A DNA stretch of 64,000 bases from Marinococcus sp. PL1-022 (GTDB lineage Bacteria > Bacillota > Bacilli > Bacillales > Marinococcaceae), in NCBI RefSeq assembly GCF_033845285.1, contig NZ_JAWXCX010000001.1, forward strand, positions 1,441,495 through 1,505,494, written 5' to 3'. A program made the position numbers and the translations under genes. Position 1 is the stretch's first letter. Each line of letters begins with the position of its first letter. Below the pieces are notes generated by a model, which worked only from the letters and a program-made list of their open reading frames with translations, had not been told where the DNA came from and did no database searches. Positions 32,288 to 39,024 of the stretch are shown piece by piece.

Positions 32288-32571
32288 AGAACTCCCCCCT
32301 GAGTTTGTTGCCTATATCTAATTATACCTAGGATTAAAGCAATGTAGTTATAATTATTATGCCGTTTTTCTTTTTTTATTTAAGTCAATTTGAATTTCGT
32401 CATTACCAGGGTAATATGTGAGGTTTACGCCACTTCAATTCGAGTGTGGCATTACTTGAACGATATCTAAGAACTAGGAGGAGCTAGTTTATTTATTATT
32501 GGGACCGGCATTAAGCAGGATGAATATTAGAAAAGAAATTACTGGAACAATGCGGAAATTTACTCAATGGA

Positions 32572-32655
32572 ATGTTGATCACCGTAATATTTACGGTACT
32601 ACTAGTCACTGTCGCAGAATTAGGATGGAAAGCGGTTCAGTGGGCGTGGAGCTGA
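32572..32655 (+). pseudogene. Relic of a short TM-peptide gene (copy 1)
   Basis: 27 codons encode a single hydrophobic segment (MLITVIFTVLLV) ending GWKAVQWAWS. The matching segment in copy 2 (35576-35631) is the 3' end of a longer open frame ending GLGWKVIE. The N-terminus here has been lost by frameshift (an upstream frame reads WNNAEIY). Probably a remnant of a phage small membrane protein. Confidence 0.4.
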
Positions 32656-32887
32656 AACACAAGCAAAGGGACGGTATCATGGGCGAATGCATGAAAGGAA
32701 TTAAATAAGATAAAATCACAGTGAAACTAAATTTTGATATACTTAGGACAGAAGAACCAGTCGTCCTGGTGGTGTCTGAGGGATGCGTTCGTTGCGTTCT
32801 TTTACCGGCCATGGGGAGACGAAGATTGTGACGCAGTAGGGTAAAGTGAAGCGGGTGAAAAGGGACGAGGGAGGGGGGAGAGTTTTG
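32583..32887 (+). repeat. 305 bp duplicated 5' segment, copy 1
   Basis: Aligns end to end with 35576-35880 (also 305 bp). The longest identical run I see is 40 bases (32725-32764 = 35718-35757). It begins in a small TM-protein relic, continues through an XtrA-like relic and ends at the start codon region of the downstream gene (GGGGGGAGAGTTTTG). It precedes an unrelated AT-rich gene. Confidence 0.9.
32679..32884 (+). pseudogene. XtrA/YqaO-like phage gene relic (copy 1)
   Basis: Begins at ATG 32679 after AAGGGACGG. Pieces in different frames spell NFDILRTEEPVVLVVSEG, then VRCVLLP, then HGETKIVT and GKVKRVK, the pattern I recall for the small XtrA/YqaO phage family. It is broken by an in-frame stop near the start, a frameshift between LLP and HGET, and a TAG replacing the codon before GKVKRV. 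The function of intact XtrA is not established. Confidence 0.65.
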
Positions 32888-33706
32888 AATGAAGGATTGA
32901 ATTCTGATCTGGTTAGATTTGCTCTAGGTGTATCTTCTGAAAATAATAGGTATTATGAAGAAATAATCAATAATTCTAAAATAAGAAGAACTTCGAAAGA
33001 AGGATTTTATTTAAAGAATCTATCGATAGAACAGAAACTTCAATATGCTGAAATAATTTTTTATGATTGTTTACAGGAAATAGTAATTTCAATAGATTAT
33101 GCTAATCATGCATTAGAAACAAGTAACTTCGGCGTAGCTTTTTCTTTAGTAAGAAAACCATTTAGAGATTTATTAGCATGTATGGAATACTTAACTTTTG
33201 ATTGGCAAGGTTATATTGAAGGGATATTAGATAACGATATCGAAAGAATCGATGTTTCAATGAAAAATAATAAAGATAAAATAGAAAAAAATATGGTATT
33301 TTTAATGCAGGAAAATGAGTCCTTTTTCAAAGGGATGAAAGTTGAGGATTTGAAAGCAATAAATCTTCATAGGTATGGTCCTGATAAAGCTAAAAACACA
33401 CTTTCAACAGCTTTAAGTCAGTCTTTGCATTTAGTTACCAATAACCCAGCATACAAAACGCCTAAAAATAGACTGAATTTTATACCATTAGTTAGTAATC
33501 AAGTTTTTGAACAAAATTATTTAGTCATTTATTTAGGGTTTTTGCCTATGTTTTACGCATATTTAAATCGATTAGTAGCGTTCAATACGTTAATGACATT
33601 TAATCATAATAATGAAAGTACAGTGAGACAAGTTATAAAATATCCAAAAATAGAAAATAAATTTCTTGAATTTACCACAGAAATAGAAAATGCATTTTTA
33701 AAGTAG
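32885..33706 (+). CDS. AT-rich cargo gene 1, unknown function
   Basis: 273 residues, largely alpha-helical, Asn/Lys/Ile-rich, and about 30% GC against about 50% around it, so acquired. A central stretch (FGVAFSLVRKPFRDLLACMEYLTFD, about residues 85-110) recalls helical HEPN/DUF5677-like proteins, but this is weak. The TTG start at 32885 is chosen because GGAGGGGGGAG lies directly upstream and the same junction occurs before cargo 2. The frame stays open into the XtrA relic upstream. It is closed by a strong terminator at 33732. It could be a phage or defence accessory gene; there is no motif evidence for either. Confidence 0.65.
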   Translation: MNEGLNSDLVRFALGVSSENNRYYEEIINNSKIRRTSKEGFYLKNLSIEQKLQYAEIIFYDCLQEIVISIDYANHALETSNFGVAFSLVRKPFRDLLACMEYLTFDWQGYIEGILDNDIERIDVSMKNNKDKIEKNMVFLMQENESFFKGMKVEDLKAINLHRYGPDKAKNTLSTALSQSLHLVTNNPAYKTPKNRLNFIPLVSNQVFEQNYLVIYLGFLPMFYAYLNRLVAFNTLMTFNHNNESTVRQVIKYPKIENKFLEFTTEIENAFLK

Positions 33707-33731
33707 TAAAAATTCTACCACCCACTGGGGG

Positions 33732-33776
33732 ACACTGAGCCACAATATAATGCTGTGGTTCAGTGTGCACTTTTTT
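33732..33776 (+). terminator. Terminator of cassette 1
   Basis: A 13 bp stem, ACACTGAGCCACA/TGTGGTTCAGTGT, with six T. The surrounding 70 bp is related to the end of cassette 2 (36550-36620). Confidence 0.92.
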
Positions 33777-33817
33777 GTGTTTGGCCGTATATAGGATTTA
33801 TTTTCTCTCTTTGTATA

Positions 33818-33845
33818 TAAAAAATCCCTGCTCGAAAGCAGGGGA
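33818..33845 (-). terminator. Terminator of DUF4064 gene
   Basis: CCCTGC/GCAGGG stem with T-rich tail on the minus strand. Confidence 0.88.
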
Positions 33846-33852
33846 ATTATAT

Positions 33853-34194
33853 TTATGCGGTTGCTGTTTTGTCTTTGCGGGCTACGCCCATAATTCCTGC
33901 AATCAATAAAAGGATACCTGAAATAATAAAGAAAGCAGAGACACTGATAAAACCGCCTACAGCAGCTACAATCATTAGTATGCCGCCAAGCTTTGCTTTA
34001 TTTCGTACTAATACTGAGCCAACAATTCCTAATACCGAAAATAGTAAAGCACCGAAACCAAGCCCTGTAACACTACTTGTACCTGTTTCTGAAAATCCGG
34101 CGTCAATTGCCCCGAAAAGGAGGGCGAAAACACCAGCGAACAATCCTAAAATGCCCCCGATCAAACCTAAAACAAATTCGCCTGTTCTGTTCAT
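33853..34194 (-). CDS. DUF4064-type small membrane protein
   Basis: 113 residues with an N-terminal NRTGEFVLGLIGGILGLFAG and three or four Gly/Ile-rich membrane segments, ending ARKDKTATA. This is the DUF4064 pattern, function unknown. It follows the DUF4352 gene by 14 bp on the same strand, so the two form an operon lying between the two cassettes. The ribosome site is AAAGGGG. Confidence 0.75.
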   Translation of the reverse strand: MNRTGEFVLGLIGGILGLFAGVFALLFGAIDAGFSETGTSSVTGLGFGALLFSVLGIVGSVLVRNKAKLGGILMIVAAVGGFISVSAFFIISGILLLIAGIMGVARKDKTATA

Positions 34195-34208
34195 TTTATA
34201 ATACCCCT

Positions 34209-35099
34209 TTATTTCAATGTAATATGGGAAGAGTTAGTGCCGAAAATACCTTCAGTCACTTCTGCTTCCAGATGATCTTCTTCCGCTACTTCATCTGTTA
34301 CATCAAAGACCACTTGGCCCTCGATGGATGAGCCTGGATTGACTTCAGAAAAGAAAAAGTCTGCAGCTTGACTAGGATCCTCGGAAGAATTCGCATAAGT
34401 ACTGGCAGTAGCATCGGCTTCAAATGTTTTTCCATCCTGTTTTAAACGAACCTGCGAAGAATCGACCATTGCCGCTTCGCTTCCGTTATTGGTATAAACC
34501 ATGTCGAGAATAATGTACGTTCCTTCTGCTGTCTCAGAGAGGTATTCGTCACCAACTGTAGAAGCTGTTGAAACATTATTAATTTGAAAGGAAACTGCTC
34601 CGACTGTTACCTTTTCGCCTAATTCATCGGAAGATTCAGTTTCACCGGAATTTTCGGAGCTTTCTTCGCCCTCTGCTTCTGAAGAGTCGTCGCTGGAGTC
34701 CGGTTCTTCATTTGCTTCTTCGCTTTCACCACCAGCTTGTGCCTCTTCTTCTTCCTGCAACTCTTGCTCCCGTTCTTCTAATTCTTGCTCACGCTGATCT
34801 AATTCTTCAGCGCGTTGTTCTTGTTCCTCTGTTTCGCTAGTAGATTCTGTTTCCGCTTCTGCTTTTTCAGTAGTCTCTTCTTCTTGTGCCTGTTGATTAC
34901 TGGTAGCAGAGTTGTCTGAGACTAATGCGTACCCACCGAAGCCAATCGCGAACAATCCGACAAAAGCAATAACATAATGCTTGGTCCGGATTTTTTCAAA
35001 AAGTGCTCGTTTGGCAACTAGCCGCATAACCGCATGTACGGCCCAAACAGCAAGTACTAGAAATGACAAAATAAATAGAAGCAAAAAGAAATTTTCCAT
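34209..35099 (-). CDS. Membrane-anchored DUF4352 (telokin-like) protein with coiled linker
   Basis: 296 residues. Two membrane segments (about 4-25 and 43-60) are followed by an acidic Glu/Gln/Ser linker with coiled-coil repeats (EELDQREQELEEREQELQ, residues about 95-120). The C-terminal beta-sandwich (about 165-296) has GEKVTVGAVSFQINNV and IILDMVYTNNGSEAAMV, typical of DUF4352. It is probably exposed outside the membrane. First gene of a two-gene operon with the DUF4064 protein. Function unknown. Confidence 0.78.
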   Translation of the reverse strand: MENFFLLLFILSFLVLAVWAVHAVMRLVAKRALFEKIRTKHYVIAFVGLFAIGFGGYALVSDNSATSNQQAQEEETTEKAEAETESTSETEEQEQRAEELDQREQELEEREQELQEEEEAQAGGESEEANEEPDSSDDSSEAEGEESSENSGETESSDELGEKVTVGAVSFQINNVSTASTVGDEYLSETAEGTYIILDMVYTNNGSEAAMVDSSQVRLKQDGKTFEADATASTYANSSEDPSQAADFFFSEVNPGSSIEGQVVFDVTDEVAEEDHLEAEVTEGIFGTNSSHITLK

Positions 35100-35390
35100 G
35101 CTCTATTCCCCCTTTAAATATTTAATTACTTTTAACAGGGAGAACGTAGAACATACCGTAATCCCCTCAATTGGAATATCCCCCTTTATATGTAAATGAA
35201 TGAACCTTTTTCATTTTACCAACACATAGTCCTAGAAACAATTACGTGCAAAAATTTTTAATTTGTGATTTCCGTACTAAAGTAATAGGAAATATTGTAT
35301 TTATTTTGTTAGTTGGGGTTGCCGCATGGCTATAAGAAAGCCTTTTGTGTATAAGTGTAAAAATAATTCTAGCTTTAAGAAGTGGTGTGG

Positions 35391-35535
35391 GTGCAATGCG
35401 AACTAGGGACACGGGTGTTAAGTGAGAAGCGGGAAGCATGGGGGGACGTTTTAGAATATGCACAAAGGACCGGAGATTTACTACTATAAGTTTACCCCGG
35501 TCCGTTGGCATCGCTATAGCGATATTGGGAAATCT
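35391..35535 (+). pseudogene. Relic of a gene like that at 47342
   Basis: Reads LGTRVLSEKREAWGDV in one frame and then YYYKFTPVRWHRYSD in another. This parallels PGTRVFSEARQQWGVV and WYYVKFTPVRSGWHHESD of the intact protein at 47342-47551. It is broken by a frameshift with a stop between. It lies directly before the duplicated segment of cassette 2. Confidence 0.75.
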
Positions 35536-35575
35536 ATGAAAAGATTCGGAATGTACTTTTCGGAGTACTAATCGA

Positions 35576-35880
35576 CGTAATATTTACAGTACTTTTGGTA
35601 AGTATCGCAGGGTTAGGATGGAAAGTGATCGAGTAGACATGGAGCTAAAACAGAAACAAAGGGGCGGTACCATGAGCGAACGCATGGGAGAAATTCAATG
35701 GGATAAAGTCACAGAGCAACTAAATTTTGATATACTTAGGACAGAAGAACCAGTCGTACTGGTGGTGTCGGAGGAGGCGTGTTCGTTGCGCTCCATTGCC
35801 GGGAGCACGGAGAGACAAAGATTGTGACGCACCAGGGAAAGGTGAAGCGCGTGAAATGGTATGAGGGGGGAAGAGTTCTG
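35576..35880 (+). repeat. 305 bp duplicated 5' segment, copy 2
   Basis: Second copy of 32583-32887, same length, ending GGGGGGAAGAGTTCTG at the start region of an unrelated membrane protein gene. Confidence 0.9.
35672..35877 (+). pseudogene. XtrA/YqaO-like phage gene relic (copy 2)
   Basis: Begins at ATG 35672. The first frame reads WDKVTEQLNFDILRTEEPVVLVVSE and then goes out of frame. The +1 frame continues GGVFVALHCREHGETKIVTHQ and GKVKRVKWYEGG. A single frameshift near 35770 separates them. The break differs from that in copy 1. The 3' part remains in frame with the downstream cargo gene. Confidence 0.68.
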
Positions 35881-36552
35881 AATAGAGATGCATTTGTAGG
35901 ACTAGTGGTTTTTGTAATAACAATATTCTTATTAGTGTATTGGAGAGGTATTATTGAAGCCGTGGGTTTGGAAAGTGTAGACGGCGGGACATGGTTGCAA
36001 ACCTCTGGAACTATCATTGGTGCTTTTTTAGGTGCTTTGTTAGCTGGAATGATTTCATTGAAAAGCGTAGAAAAACAAATTGAATATAACAAAAAAAGAG
36101 AAGCTAAAAAAGAAAATCAGTATTTAGGCAATGTATCTTCACAATTAGGGTTTTATTTTTCGGAAGTTGTTAAACAGTTACGAGAAATTAAAGAAATCCA
36201 CGATGGACATCAGTTTGGAATAGCTTATTCAGAAATTAAGTTCAGATTTAATAGACTTAACGATTTAAACAGAACTATTGAAAAGATAGACCTTAGCGGT
36301 TTGACTGTCAATGAAAATCACTCCCTACAACATAGCAAATTAACTATCGTTTATAGACTTACTGATATTGAAGATTTATTACGGAGAATTGAAACACCTG
36401 ATGGTTTTTTATTAATACATCGATTACCGTCCGGAGAAAATAGTTATGAAGAAAATCATAATGGGATTATTATGCAGATTGGAATGAATATTAAAACAAT
36501 CAATGATACTAAAAAAATGATAGACGAAATAAATAAGAAATACTCAAAATAA
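35878..36552 (+). CDS. AT-rich cargo gene 2, two-TM membrane protein
   Basis: About 224 residues. Two membrane segments (about 6-22 and 45-62, the latter SGTIIGAFLGALLAGMISL) are followed by a Lys/Glu-rich cytoplasmic helical region without a known domain. It is AT-rich, as cargo 1 is. The start is uncertain: by comparison with cargo 1 it is the CTG at 35878, after GAGGGGGGAAGAG. A GTG at 35851 in the same frame would add part of the XtrA relic, and the frame stays open back to about 35740. Terminator at 36573. No function recognised. Confidence 0.6.
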   Translation: MNRDAFVGLVVFVITIFLLVYWRGIIEAVGLESVDGGTWLQTSGTIIGAFLGALLAGMISLKSVEKQIEYNKKREAKKENQYLGNVSSQLGFYFSEVVKQLREIKEIHDGHQFGIAYSEIKFRFNRLNDLNRTIEKIDLSGLTVNENHSLQHSKLTIVYRLTDIEDLLRRIETPDGFLLIHRLPSGENSYEENHNGIIMQIGMNIKTINDTKKMIDEINKKYSK

Positions 36553-36572
36553 AAGTTTTACCAGTCAACTGG

Positions 36573-36620
36573 AGGATACTGAAAGACAGCACAACGCTGT
36601 GGTTTGGTGTCCTCTTTTTT
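36573..36620 (+). terminator. Terminator of cassette 2
   Basis: GGATAC/GTGTCC outer stem and CAGC/GCTG inner stem, then CTCTTTTTT. Homologous to the terminator region of cassette 1 (shared GCTGTGGTT and flanks). Confidence 0.75.
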
Positions 36621-36817
36621 GTTAGGAGGCATGTATGGAACAGAAACCGCAGTAGAGGAAGAAGCAGCTTGGCGAGAGAGGTTAAAGAGTTGATAGGCGT
36701 ACACAAACTAACTTTTGCTTTTTGCATGACTTTTATCCCGAAAACTCATTAAGACGTTTGCTTTCCCCGTATAAAGAGGTAGAGAGGAATACATAAAAAA
36801 ATAAGGGATGATAAAAA

Positions 36818-36955
36818 ATGAATAAAGCACACTTGATTACGGAGAAAATGGCGCTGGAGGAAGAGTACGATAAAGGTGAGGTTCCGCATGATGAATATAT
36901 TGAGCGTGTGGAGGAGCTGCAGCAGCAACTGGAGCAGCCAAACTTTGTAAAATAA
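36818..36955 (+). CDS. Very small hypothetical protein
   Basis: 45 residues: NKAHLITEKMALEEEY, then a helix-rich acidic sequence ending LEQPNFVK. TAAGGGATG precedes the ATG. Its composition is protein-like and charged. The gene at 37011 follows 55 bp downstream. No family recognised. Confidence 0.55.
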   Translation: MNKAHLITEKMALEEEYDKGEVPHDEYIERVEELQQQLEQPNFVK

Positions 36956-37010
36956 ATGTAATGATGAAAAACTAGAATAGTATGGTAATGTGTAAGCAGA
37001 AGGTGATAAA

Positions 37011-37261: not shown

Positions 37262-37418
37262 GTGCTTAATTGGAGGCTGTATTGAACCAGGACTGGAAAA
37301 AATTCATCTTACATAACAGTTTTTGATCCCCCGAAACGAACCATCCAGACAATATACAACGTGGGGAAGACGAAAAATAACGCGATGTTTTTTTGAAATT
37401 TATAAAGAGGTGAAAAGT

Positions 37419-38264
37419 GTGAGCAAGCATCAGGAACTGCGGGCCATCATGAAGAAAATGAGCGGACAGGATCATATCATCACGGTGCCGCGTATCTTTA
37501 TCGAATTTTTGGACGGCGATTTGAACACGGCGCTCGTTTTAAATCAGCTCGTGTTTTACGCCGACAAAACGAAGCGCACCGACGGCTTCTTTTATAAAAG
37601 CTACGGCGAATGGGAGACAGAGACGGGATTAACCCGGCGCAAAATCAAGGGATCGATCGATAAGCTGATCAACAAAGAGCTGGTCGCCACCAAGCTGAAA
37701 AAGGCGAACGGGGCGCCGACGCTGCACTATGCGCTGGATTACGGCAAAATGCTTGCTTCCATTACGGCAAAATGTGCAAATCCATCTGAACAGCCTGTCA
37801 CTAACCCGGATTCGAACAAAGTGCCGGATTCCATAACAGATGATTTGCAGTTGAATTCAACAGATGAGTTAAACAGTAGTCCCCGCGCCATCGCAAGCGT
37901 TGTTCCGTTTTATGAGGAGAATTTTGACGGAACGATGACGGCCTATCACCGGGAGCGGCTGGGTGATTGGTGCGAGGTGCTTTCTCCGGAGATTGTGCTT
38001 CGGGCGTTGGAGATCACGATTCTACAGGGCGGCCGCAGACTGAAATACGCTGAGCAGATCCTGAATGATTGGCAGCGGTTCGGCTGTCGCACGCTTGATG
38101 ATGTAGAAAAATACGAAGAAACGAAAAAACAGCAGAAGGAGGCACGCCGACATGGAAGAAGCAGCCAAAGGCATGCAGGAGGTACTCGCCAGTCTCGAAA
38201 AGAAATCAGCGGAAATGAAAAGCAATCCACTCTCGGTAACGGATGGTACCGACCGGGAACCTGA
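37419..38264 (+). CDS. Phage-type replication protein with DnaD-like domain
   Basis: 281 residues. The N-terminal winged-helix region (about residues 15-110; TALVLNQLVFYADKT, GLTRRKIKGSIDKLI) is typical of phage replisome organisers. A DnaD/DnaB_2-like C-terminal domain (about 160-240; VVPFYEENF ... LKYAEQILNDWQRFG) recruits helicase loaders. The GTG at 37419 follows AAAGAGGTG. The last 38 residues overlap the next gene's start by 113 bp in another frame and are basic and atypical, so the ancestral stop may have been lost. It pairs with the DnaC-like gene as a phage replication module without other phage genes. Confidence 0.82.
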   Translation: MSKHQELRAIMKKMSGQDHIITVPRIFIEFLDGDLNTALVLNQLVFYADKTKRTDGFFYKSYGEWETETGLTRRKIKGSIDKLINKELVATKLKKANGAPTLHYALDYGKMLASITAKCANPSEQPVTNPDSNKVPDSITDDLQLNSTDELNSSPRAIASVVPFYEENFDGTMTAYHRERLGDWCEVLSPEIVLRALEITILQGGRRLKYAEQILNDWQRFGCRTLDDVEKYEETKKQQKEARRHGRSSQRHAGGTRQSRKEISGNEKQSTLGNGWYRPGT

Positions 38265-39024
38265 GTACCAGTGTCCGGTATGCAAAGATCAGACCGGCTG
38301 GCTGGAAAAGGTGGAGGGAGTCGAGAAATGGGTCATCTGTCCGTGTATTCGCGAGCGCCGGACGCAGCGGCTGCTCCAATTTAGTGAGATCACCGAAAGC
38401 TTCCGGAACGTTACCTTCGGGCAGTTTCAGACCGACAACGCAGATCCGCAGGTAGCGAGCATGAAAGAAGCCGCGCTCGCCTACTACAGCCATTACCAGG
38501 ATCTGCGGAAGCAGCGGGAGAACAGCATGCTGCTCATGGGTGTGCCGGGCTGCGGCAAAACGCATATTCTCACAGCGCTCAGCAACAACCTGATGCAGCG
38601 CAAAAAGCTCGAGGACGAGGGCGGACAGCAGCAGGGCGTATCCGTCCAGTATTTTCCTTACGTTGAAGGGTTCAACGACCTGCGGGACGACTTTAATCTG
38701 CTGGAGCGGAAAATGGAGCGCATGAAAAAGGCGGACGTGCTGTTTATCGATGATTTGTTCAAGCCGGTGAAGCAGTGGACAAAGGATGGGTATGAGCGGA
38801 TGCCGCGGGCAACCGCCTGGCAGATCGAGCAGATGTACGCCGTGATTAATCACCGGTATCTGAATCACCTGCCGATTCTCGTTTCCACGGAGCTGATCAT
38901 GGAAGAGCTCGTGGAGGTGGACGACGCGCTCGCGTCCCGGATCGTGCAGATGTGCAAATCCTTCCTGGTGACGATCACCGGGCCGAAGAATGACTTAAAC
39001 TACCGACTCAAAGGAGTGTATTAA
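38152..39024 (+). CDS. DnaC/DnaI-like helicase loader ATPase, phage type
   Basis: 290 residues. An N-terminal zinc finger (CPVCKDQTGW, then CPC, about residues 42-65) precedes an AAA+ domain with Walker A GVPGCGKTH (about 129) and Walker B VLFIDDLFKP (about 195). The ending resembles phage and DnaI loaders that bring the replicative helicase to the origin. AGGAGGCACGCCGAC lies before the ATG, inside the preceding gene. The overlap indicates coupled translation with the DnaD-like protein. Confidence 0.88.
   Translation: MEEAAKGMQEVLASLEKKSAEMKSNPLSVTDGTDREPEYQCPVCKDQTGWLEKVEGVEKWVICPCIRERRTQRLLQFSEITESFRNVTFGQFQTDNADPQVASMKEAALAYYSHYQDLRKQRENSMLLMGVPGCGKTHILTALSNNLMQRKKLEDEGGQQQGVSVQYFPYVEGFNDLRDDFNLLERKMERMKKADVLFIDDLFKPVKQWTKDGYERMPRATAWQIEQMYAVINHRYLNHLPILVSTELIMEELVEVDDALASRIVQMCKSFLVTITGPKNDLNYRLKGVY

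Follow-up and report, generated by a model that had tools for sequence, protein, structure and literature searches.

Two units with common ends in Marinococcus sp. PL1-022

The 3.2 Mb genome of Marinococcus sp. PL1-022 carries two neighboring units in which similar ends enclose different genes (Table 1). They lie within a 64,000-nucleotide stretch of contig NZ_JAWXCX010000001.1 (positions 1,441,495 to 1,505,494), called here the window. Each unit begins with a leader that contains the end of a gene resembling those for small membrane proteins, as judged by reading of the sequence, followed by a broken copy of xtrA. A gene termed here the cargo comes next, and the unit closes with a 3' element composed of a conserved box and a terminator. 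The interval between xtrA and this element is referred to as the slot. The nearest named relatives of this genome belong to Marinococcus.

The two leaders align with 282 identities, 68 mismatches and 11 gap positions, which corresponds to ~355 bp at ~80% identity. An earlier note on this DNA had described the recurrence of a 305-bp segment of equal length in both copies. The recurrence is real and the homology extends slightly further than described, while the equality in length holds only because indels balance each other. The 40-base identical run that was also reported starts at 32725 and 35718; simulation of 305-bp stretches with 79% identity gave runs of this length in 0.4% of cases. The 3' ends, aligned from the cargo stop codons, have 55 identities, 17 mismatches and 1 gap, with an alignment score of 36, whereas 500 mononucleotide shuffles reached 16 at most, in agreement with the view that related terminators follow each cargo. 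Beyond the leader and this 73-bp 3' element, unit 1 (32535–33779) and unit 2 (35529–36623) share no sequence.

The cargo frames open at TTG 32885 and CTG 35878, an identical position relative to the xtrA tail, as expected from the conserved start-codon junction proposed previously. The DNA of the two cargos does not align except for a 24-bp AT-rich match. Their proteins yield a best BLASTP piece of 21 bits (E 0.016 in a single comparison) and a profile-comparison probability of 0.3%, so that the description of the cargos as unrelated stands in both comparisons. Relatives have intact copies of xtrA, while the hidden Markov model (HMM) matches to it are split over two reading frames in each leader copy. 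Recognition of these broken copies by Pfam is weak: family PF17356 scored 27.5 bits in unit 2 and 28.5 and 23 bits in a second scan, all below the cut-off of 29.7. Note that a third xtrA remnant is found on the other strand of the same genome (G000:C1:2364671-2364853; loci L003 and L052). It adjoins an open reading frame (ORF) that reads as a RecF/OLD-type ATPase-like protein and an ORF of 346 amino acids; a profile search found no terminator element within its 20-kb stretch.

Table 1. Features of the two units and of the adjoining phage-type genes; positions are those of the window.
Feature	Position	Strand	Description and basis
Unit 1, shared 5' segment	32535..32891	+	End of membrane-protein gene and broken xtrA; xtrA HMM matches at 32691-32828 and 32801-32878, in different frames
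Unit 1, promoter-like site in xtrA remnant	32715..32743	+	ATCACA-17-TATACT, TG before second hexamer
Unit 1, G-rich Shine-Dalgarno-like stretch	32868..32882	+	Directly 5' of the shared start codon; sequence and codon bias
Unit 1, cargo	32885..33706	+	273 amino acids, TTG start, soluble helical, no known family
Unit 1, conserved box and terminator	33707..33779	+	Alignment, element profile, fold
Unit 2, shared 5' segment	35529..35884	+	Broken xtrA; xtrA HMM matches at 35684-35788 and 35803-35874
Unit 2, promoter-like site in xtrA remnant	35708..35736	+	GTCACA-17-TATACT with TG
Unit 2, Shine-Dalgarno-like stretch	35863..35875	+	Sequence and codon bias
Unit 2, cargo	35878..36552	+	224 amino acids, CTG start, two membrane helices then helical domain
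Unit 2, conserved box and terminator	36550..36623	+	Alignment, element profile, fold
Phage-type DnaD-like and DnaC-like helicase loader genes adjoining the slot	37323..39024	+	PHROGs; 91-94% in L035, L036 and L156

xtrA and the 3' element as a fixed pair

The leader was searched in 100 relatives and in the genome itself, and 13 of these 101 genomes have a match, many in the last 75 bp only. The 3' element, searched separately, is found in 11 of them. Profiles of xtrA and of the element, applied to 20 stretches, placed the pair in order in 15, at distances from several hundred up to several thousand bp, and the window has the same arrangement. Among loci collected with the XtrA protein only (the best 80 hits of 144 in genomes and the best 80 of 160 in the viral collection), the element is found downstream of xtrA, in the same orientation, at 73 of the 79 loci from genomes and 79 of the 80 viral ones. 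The reverse order, with the element upstream on that strand, is limited to 3 and 2 of these loci, respectively. Searching from the opposite end, the exact motif TTCTACCAGNNNNCTGGAGGACA of the 3' element matched 101 stretches of the viral collection, 68 of which have xtrA upstream on the same strand; 32 of the 33 others have less than 1.6 kb of upstream sequence. A conserved downstream terminator thus accompanies xtrA elsewhere, and the alternative foreseen in the earlier note, an occurrence elsewhere only as intact phage genes devoid of it, was not observed. In isolated phages XtrA is found only in two records of phage AP45, and plasmids gave no match to a 229-bp xtrA segment. The slot of locus L205 reads as apparently broken by an insertion sequence (IS) shortly into the cargo. 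A slot of the Bacillales kind is also present in L166 (NZ_QWLJ01000006.1), a record titled Roseburia sp. 1XD42-34, which is either a mislabelled genome or a wide host jump.

The position of the slot in phage genomes is likewise regular. Where at least 1.2 kb of sequence follows the element, at least one of the first three downstream ORFs belongs to either of two protein clusters in 116 of 136 units. Three proteins of the first cluster were tested with NCBIfam, which assigns one to the ArpU family of regulators; both proteins tested from the second are assigned to positive control sigma-like factors. The slot usually precedes late-gene regulators. The order in the isolated phage AP45 is XtrA/YqaO family protein, hypothetical protein and RNA polymerase sigma factor.

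Diversity and turnover of the cargo

A total of 220 units was reduced to 190 by exact comparison and to 151 at 95% identity, and the latter set was used for the counts given here. The distance from xtrA to the element ranges from 4 to 7,378 bp. Eight slots are near-empty, the element following the xtrA stop at a distance of less than 150 bp. The 143 filled slots contain 227 ORFs, 222 of them on the plus strand, which form 134 sequence clusters. A single ORF is present in 93 of the filled slots, the full range being zero to six ORFs with one terminator element (one filled unit has no ORF of 50 amino acids). This diversity between conserved ends, together with the near-empty slots, supports the proposal of the earlier note that xtrA loci are a swap site where many different accessory genes are found between the same ends.

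Unit pairs whose xtrA genes are at least 90% identical have a cargo cluster in common in 4 of 34 cases, versus a common downstream gene in 17 of 24 and a common upstream gene in 15 of 29. Related cargo also occurs next to divergent xtrA genes, a cluster being shared by 152 of the 3048 pairs with less than 60% identity. The junctions are sharp. In the 30 close pairs with different cargo, a set that covers every such pair, the mean identity is 94% over the 30 nt leading up to the xtrA stop and drops to 30% over the 30 nt that follow it; at the other end it rises from 36% over the 30 nt preceding the box to 97% over its first 25 nt. In 20 printed pairs, hand-picked from the most similar, the switch occurs within a few bases of the stop codon and of the first box base; some switch points are inside the xtrA stop codon, and others two or three bases past the start of the box.

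Tandem arrangements complete this picture. Internal xtrA tails (E<0.01, plus strand) are found in 10 of the 143 filled slots against none in reversed sequence, and one slot has an internal element. Locus L156 is organized as xtrA, cargo, truncated element, xtrA tail, second cargo and complete element, with a ragged joint, and the amino terminus of its second cargo is related to the cargo of window unit 2. Locus L035 carries a tandem cassette too. The cargo differs in composition from its surroundings, with a mean G+C of 29% compared to 38% upstream and 36% downstream, and is below the downstream value in 126 of 132 cases. A simple hydropathy rule identifies a membrane helix in 122 of 222 cargo ORFs, and in 117 of these 122 it starts within the first 80 residues. 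The corresponding values are 17 of 302 for ORFs located upstream and 53 of 335 for those downstream.

The xtrA tail as a candidate expression leader

Codon choice for a given amino acid was compared across the columns of 148 xtrA genes. It is most biased at the isoleucine of the sequence D-I-M, which is coded by ATA in 110 of 121 (0.92 bits). This codon and the following ATG create TGATATAAT, similar to an extended -10 promoter element. The E-G pair near the XtrA carboxyl terminus is preferentially coded by GAG (127 of 142) and GGG (117 of 147), giving the Shine-Dalgarno-like stretch GAGGGG. A promoter scan detected a site in both window units, with a 17-nt spacer and the TG. In 80 of 140 units the first cargo ORF has a TTG (76 units) or CTG (4 units) start that overlaps the stop of xtrA, its first base being the last of a phenylalanine codon and its other two the first two of the stop. 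In 68 of these 80 an in-frame ATG is reached only after 30 nt or more, and both window cargos use the same overlap. The coding sequence of xtrA seems to be shaped as an expression leader for its neighbor gene. Note that AP45 gp26 (L347, NC_048651) is annotated with a start ~75 nt beyond the end of xtrA; judged by the shared TTG, the protein is likely longer than this annotation.

Architecture of the 3' element

The element was analyzed in 150 of the 151 units, stem pairing being counted in the 87 of these with both arms anchored; alignment A1 comprises 15 of 21 terminator sequences. Box positions 0–24 are conserved with the exception of the loop (10–13), the left edge is sharp, and G9, C14, T15, A18 and G19 are invariant in all 150 units. 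A run of at least four T follows in 145 units. The terminator stem is variable in sequence and mostly pairs, through many types of base pairs. The box can itself form a hairpin of 9 bp that includes a bulged base, which is A in 141 of 150 units, and a wobble T-G pair in 135 of them. Changes at its inner pairs mostly keep pairing. Pair 6-17 is replaced by T-A in six units (five of Domibacillus, perhaps one event), by T-G in two and by the non-pair C-A in one, while pair 8-15 is G-T in three units and the non-pair T-T in one. Conservation is weaker at the outer pairs (137 and 140 of 150 units). The viral collection provided seven xtrA-linked matches of the 6-17 double-change pattern and three 8-15 G-T variants, and no xtrA-linked match of the other single-change box patterns tried. 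Among 19 variant-pattern matches examined, which can arise by chance, xtrA is upstream on the same strand in 10 and absent from that position in 9.

The T-G wobble and the bulged base in the conserved box favor an RNA hairpin over a DNA dimer site, and the pattern as a whole is more in keeping with an RNA element than with a palindrome in the DNA. The right arm of the box, AGGAC, is the start of the terminator stem; the outer five pairs of the hairpin would therefore compete with the terminator, and the inner four can coexist with it (fold of L041). Antiterminator-terminator switches of the ribonucleic antiterminator (RAT) class (LicT/SacY type) have a conserved imperfect hairpin that overlaps the 5' arm of the terminator. 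The box resembles them in this overlap and differs, as far as we know, in sequence; an Rfam search of window positions 32300–37000 gave no match. It is conceivable, albeit doubtful, that the box acts as an RNA antiterminator hairpin (GUUCU-A-CCAG-NNNN-CUGG-AGGAC) at which a phage factor would set the choice between stop and read-through into the ArpU or sigma-like regulator, with cargo on and the late regulator off in lysogeny, and read-through in lytic growth. That XtrA might be the factor reading the box is a guess. Such a switch is made less plausible by the fact that the box hairpin excludes the terminator only in part. If it were true, a universal expression slot for exchangeable immunity genes would be built into the lysis-lysogeny control of the phages themselves.

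The chromosomal site after glnA in Marinococcus

Five Marinococcus genomes have the slot, or a trace of it, 3' of glnA, with different contents. The upstream flank of this site is 92–96% identical among Marinococcus genomes and the downstream flank 91–94% in three of four relatives; in M. luteus the downstream match is limited to 273 bp at 87%, located 7.8 kb further on. The phage-type DnaD-like and DnaC-like genes are found beyond the slot. The site contains two units in the window genome, a different cargo pair in genome G001, an intact xtrA with another cargo in M. luteus, a tandem in G101, which is labelled as the same species, and the 3' element only in G003. The promoter-like stretch TTTTGATATA is identical in five aligned Marinococcus copies, broken ones included. 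This stretch and the terminators are retained while xtrA decays; the box decays also in unit 1. This pattern agrees with a domesticated chromosomal remnant that is maintained for the sake of its cargo.

The origin of unit 2 by simple duplication of unit 1 was rejected because the flanks of the two units are collinear with different relatives, unit 1 with the G001 site and the upstream flank of unit 2 (35172–35531) with M. luteus. Two minus-strand genes at 33853–35099 separate these slot copies of apparently different ancestry. They code for a small membrane protein, by reading of the sequence, and for a DUF4352 protein.

Functions of the cargo proteins

A set of 125 cargo proteins was scanned, composed of 123 of the 134 cluster representatives (plus strand, at least 70 amino acids) and of the two window cargos. 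They match 55 Pfam families, and RelA/SpoT-type domains are among the matches. The representatives of the two largest clusters (L144 and L213, with 21 and 12 members, respectively) have no Pfam match. Twenty cargos, chosen as larger proteins, were also scanned singly, and nine of them match PADLOC models (E<=1e-5). The defense-related cargos include a reverse transcriptase of the DRT4/DRT6/AbiK kind (L259), RmrA and RmrT of RosmerTA (L069 and L079), a PDC-S25 protein with similarity to SIR2/ThsA (L270), an ApeA-type HEPN protein (L210) and an AbiP/AbiC-like membrane protein (L071); the L253 cargo has weak AriA/GajA-like ATPase matches. Two features used to recognize defense hotspots, namely unrelated cargos between conserved flanks and known defense systems among them, are thus found in the slot.

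The structure models of both window cargos, built from 4-sequence alignments, are all-helical with mean pLDDT of 70 and 71. Cargo 2 has a weak Foldseek match (E 0.013, TM 0.62 on target) to a 159-residue AP45 protein, the same length as the AP45 slot protein gp26. Protein searches located cargo 1 homologues at three loci, one of them in a slot. The latter protein is related over nearly its full length (32%) and comes from a decayed tandem xtrA-terminator slot of another genus. Homologues of the cargo 2 amino terminus lie between xtrA and the terminator at five of nine loci; two of the cargo 2 homologue loci (L342 and L346) are on contigs already in the set.

A proposed exchangeable expression slot and its alternatives

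The fixed ends, the many cargos, the sharp junctions, the near-empty and tandem states and the codon bias point to an accessory-gene expression slot of Bacillales phages whose contents are exchanged, probably by homologous recombination at its ends. We assign a probability of about 0.8 to this interpretation, which is built on sequence comparison. The two window units would be relics of such a slot from temperate phages. In the intact phage the proposed order is xtrA, cargo, conserved box with terminator, and late-gene regulator (ArpU or positive control sigma-like). The 3' part of xtrA would double as a leader that provides an extended -10 promoter and, in its last codons, a Shine-Dalgarno sequence, the TTG start overlapping the xtrA stop serving the cargo in more than half of the units. 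The slot could tolerate many unrelated genes because any ORF joined at the leader would be translated from the shared start and the transcript would end at the terminator, before the late regulator. Cargo may be replaced when a phage recombines with another phage or with a prophage remnant through the xtrA tail and the terminator element, and unequal recombination would produce tandem cargos separated by a truncated xtrA tail. For many of the cargos, expression in the lysogen and action against other phages are probable. In Marinococcus the chromosomal remnant 3' of glnA would keep promoter, start and terminator because they serve the cargo, while xtrA decays.

Sharp junctions with unrelated cargo and tandem cassettes could also be generated by site-specific exchange, in which a recombinase acting at the box, and perhaps also at the xtrA end, would insert and remove ORFs precisely in an integron-like manner; the conservation of the box from its first base and its five invariant positions agree with such a target. 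This is improbable since homologous recombination in both conserved arms yields equally sharp edges, the wobble and the bulged base suit an RNA hairpin better than a DNA dimer site, and the L156 tandem joint is ragged. The slot interpretation has, in addition, to be separated from ordinary early-region mosaicism, according to which the stretch from xtrA to the late regulator would be made of fast-evolving small phage genes and not be an accessory or defense slot. In favor of mosaicism, close relatives differ in their upstream genes as well, many of the cargos are without a known function, and the PADLOC flank control described below goes in the same direction. Slot turnover exceeds that on either side, however, and the excess of membrane helices in the cargo, the near-empty slots and the several cargos matching known defense proteins make mosaicism on its own an equally improbable explanation. 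A local accident, namely a duplicated prophage fragment whose middle parts diverged or were replaced by chance, would agree with the decay of both window units and their proximity to phage replication genes. It is refuted by the fixed pair of ends and by the diversity of cargo that they flank in the great majority of sampled loci, from many genera, and has practically no likelihood left.

Several results weigh against an exchangeable defense slot. The loci ascertained with XtrA are those nearest to the Marinococcus-type protein, and the genome and viral sets overlap, with 27 identical units in both. Minus-strand matches of the element occur in 11 of 79 genome and 14 of 80 viral loci. The element is missing in six of the 79 genome loci; two of these have just 444 and 2,319 bp of downstream DNA, and of the four with 6 kb downstream one is apparently interrupted by an IS, one runs into a ribD-like region, by reading of the sequence, and two are unexplained. 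Part of the turnover pattern is general phage mosaicism because upstream early genes also turn over. Regarding the leader, the three xtrA columns cited above (0.92, 0.69 and 0.49 bits) were evaluated with a statistic that ignores phylogeny, and other columns are biased too (0.85, 0.67 and 0.64 bits for columns 1, 27 and 24, and several near 0.5). Promoter-like sites in the region number 18 against a mean of 14 in shuffles, and a perfect TGN-TATAAT is found in only 25 of 68 xtrA genes.

The defense role has further points against it. For the flank control 110 of 179 representatives of flanking proteins were sampled and 109 scanned, leaving out L156:7275-7895, which is itself a cargo. These 109 proteins match 219 PADLOC families versus 143 for the 125 cargo proteins. 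The family counts therefore show no enrichment of defense families in the slot over flanking genes and were rejected as proof of it. The flank matches are, in their listed part, mostly to methyltransferases, and differ there in kind from those of the cargo. The window cargos have no accepted match in PADLOC, Pfam, PHROGs or NCBIfam, and Foldseek gave no match at E<=0.001 for cargo 1 against PDB or cargo 2 against BFVD. The PADLOC matches of cargo 1 to Csm5 (E 0.005) and PDC-M08B (E 0.03) were attributed to chance or low complexity, as were the weak matches of cargo 2 in Pfam and PHROGs, for which the best E values outside the xtrA tail are 0.0014 and 0.0021. The suggestion of the earlier note that the slot carries defense genes consequently holds for some cargos with matches to defense proteins, and finds no support in the two window cargos or in the family counts.

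Relation to known systems and significance

Phage morons are foreign genes of different composition that are inserted between phage genes and have their own promoter and terminator. The cargo is similar to them in composition and as an extra gene between genes that are adjacent in relatives, as seen in the 8 of 151 units with less than 150 bp. Promoter-like and terminator sequences are also present, although they are common to the slot. The cargo differs from morons in that the putative promoter, ribosome site and start codon appear to lie in the neighboring phage gene, where different, unrelated cargos would make use of them. P2-like phages and P4-like satellites of E. coli have variable anti-phage genes at a fixed locus, for which exchange by recombination was proposed (PMC9122126). 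The present slot shares with these hotspots the variable genes at one phage locus, here some with matches to defense proteins, and differs by its sharp junctions and by ends that would form a shared expression unit composed of a leader with start codon, a box and a terminator; the word "terminator" is absent from the main text of that paper. Relaxed homologous recombination by Rad52-like recombinases, which generates lambdoid-phage mosaics from defective prophages (PMC3945230), would be a sufficient mechanism of exchange, described in that source for lambdoid phages and not for this slot. Tha of Staphylococcus prophages (PMC11087260) is a single-gene prophage defense expressed in lysogeny, as may apply to the cargo, encoded in the cI operon with antisense control and not after xtrA. 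In literature titles and abstracts, a coverage that leaves subscription papers largely outside, no description of a slot of this kind was found, and XtrA is merely named in the passages retrieved.

If the proposed organization is right, the xtrA tail and GTTCTACCAGNNNNCTGGAGGAC mark the boundaries of accessory genes in many Bacillales phages, and these landmarks would predict the true start codon of the cargo, which annotation can miss. Many of the 134 cargo clusters seem to be without named function, and the slot would be a handle to search for new anti-phage and superinfection genes. The Marinococcus site would then provide a case for how decayed prophage remnants keep exchanging immunity genes.

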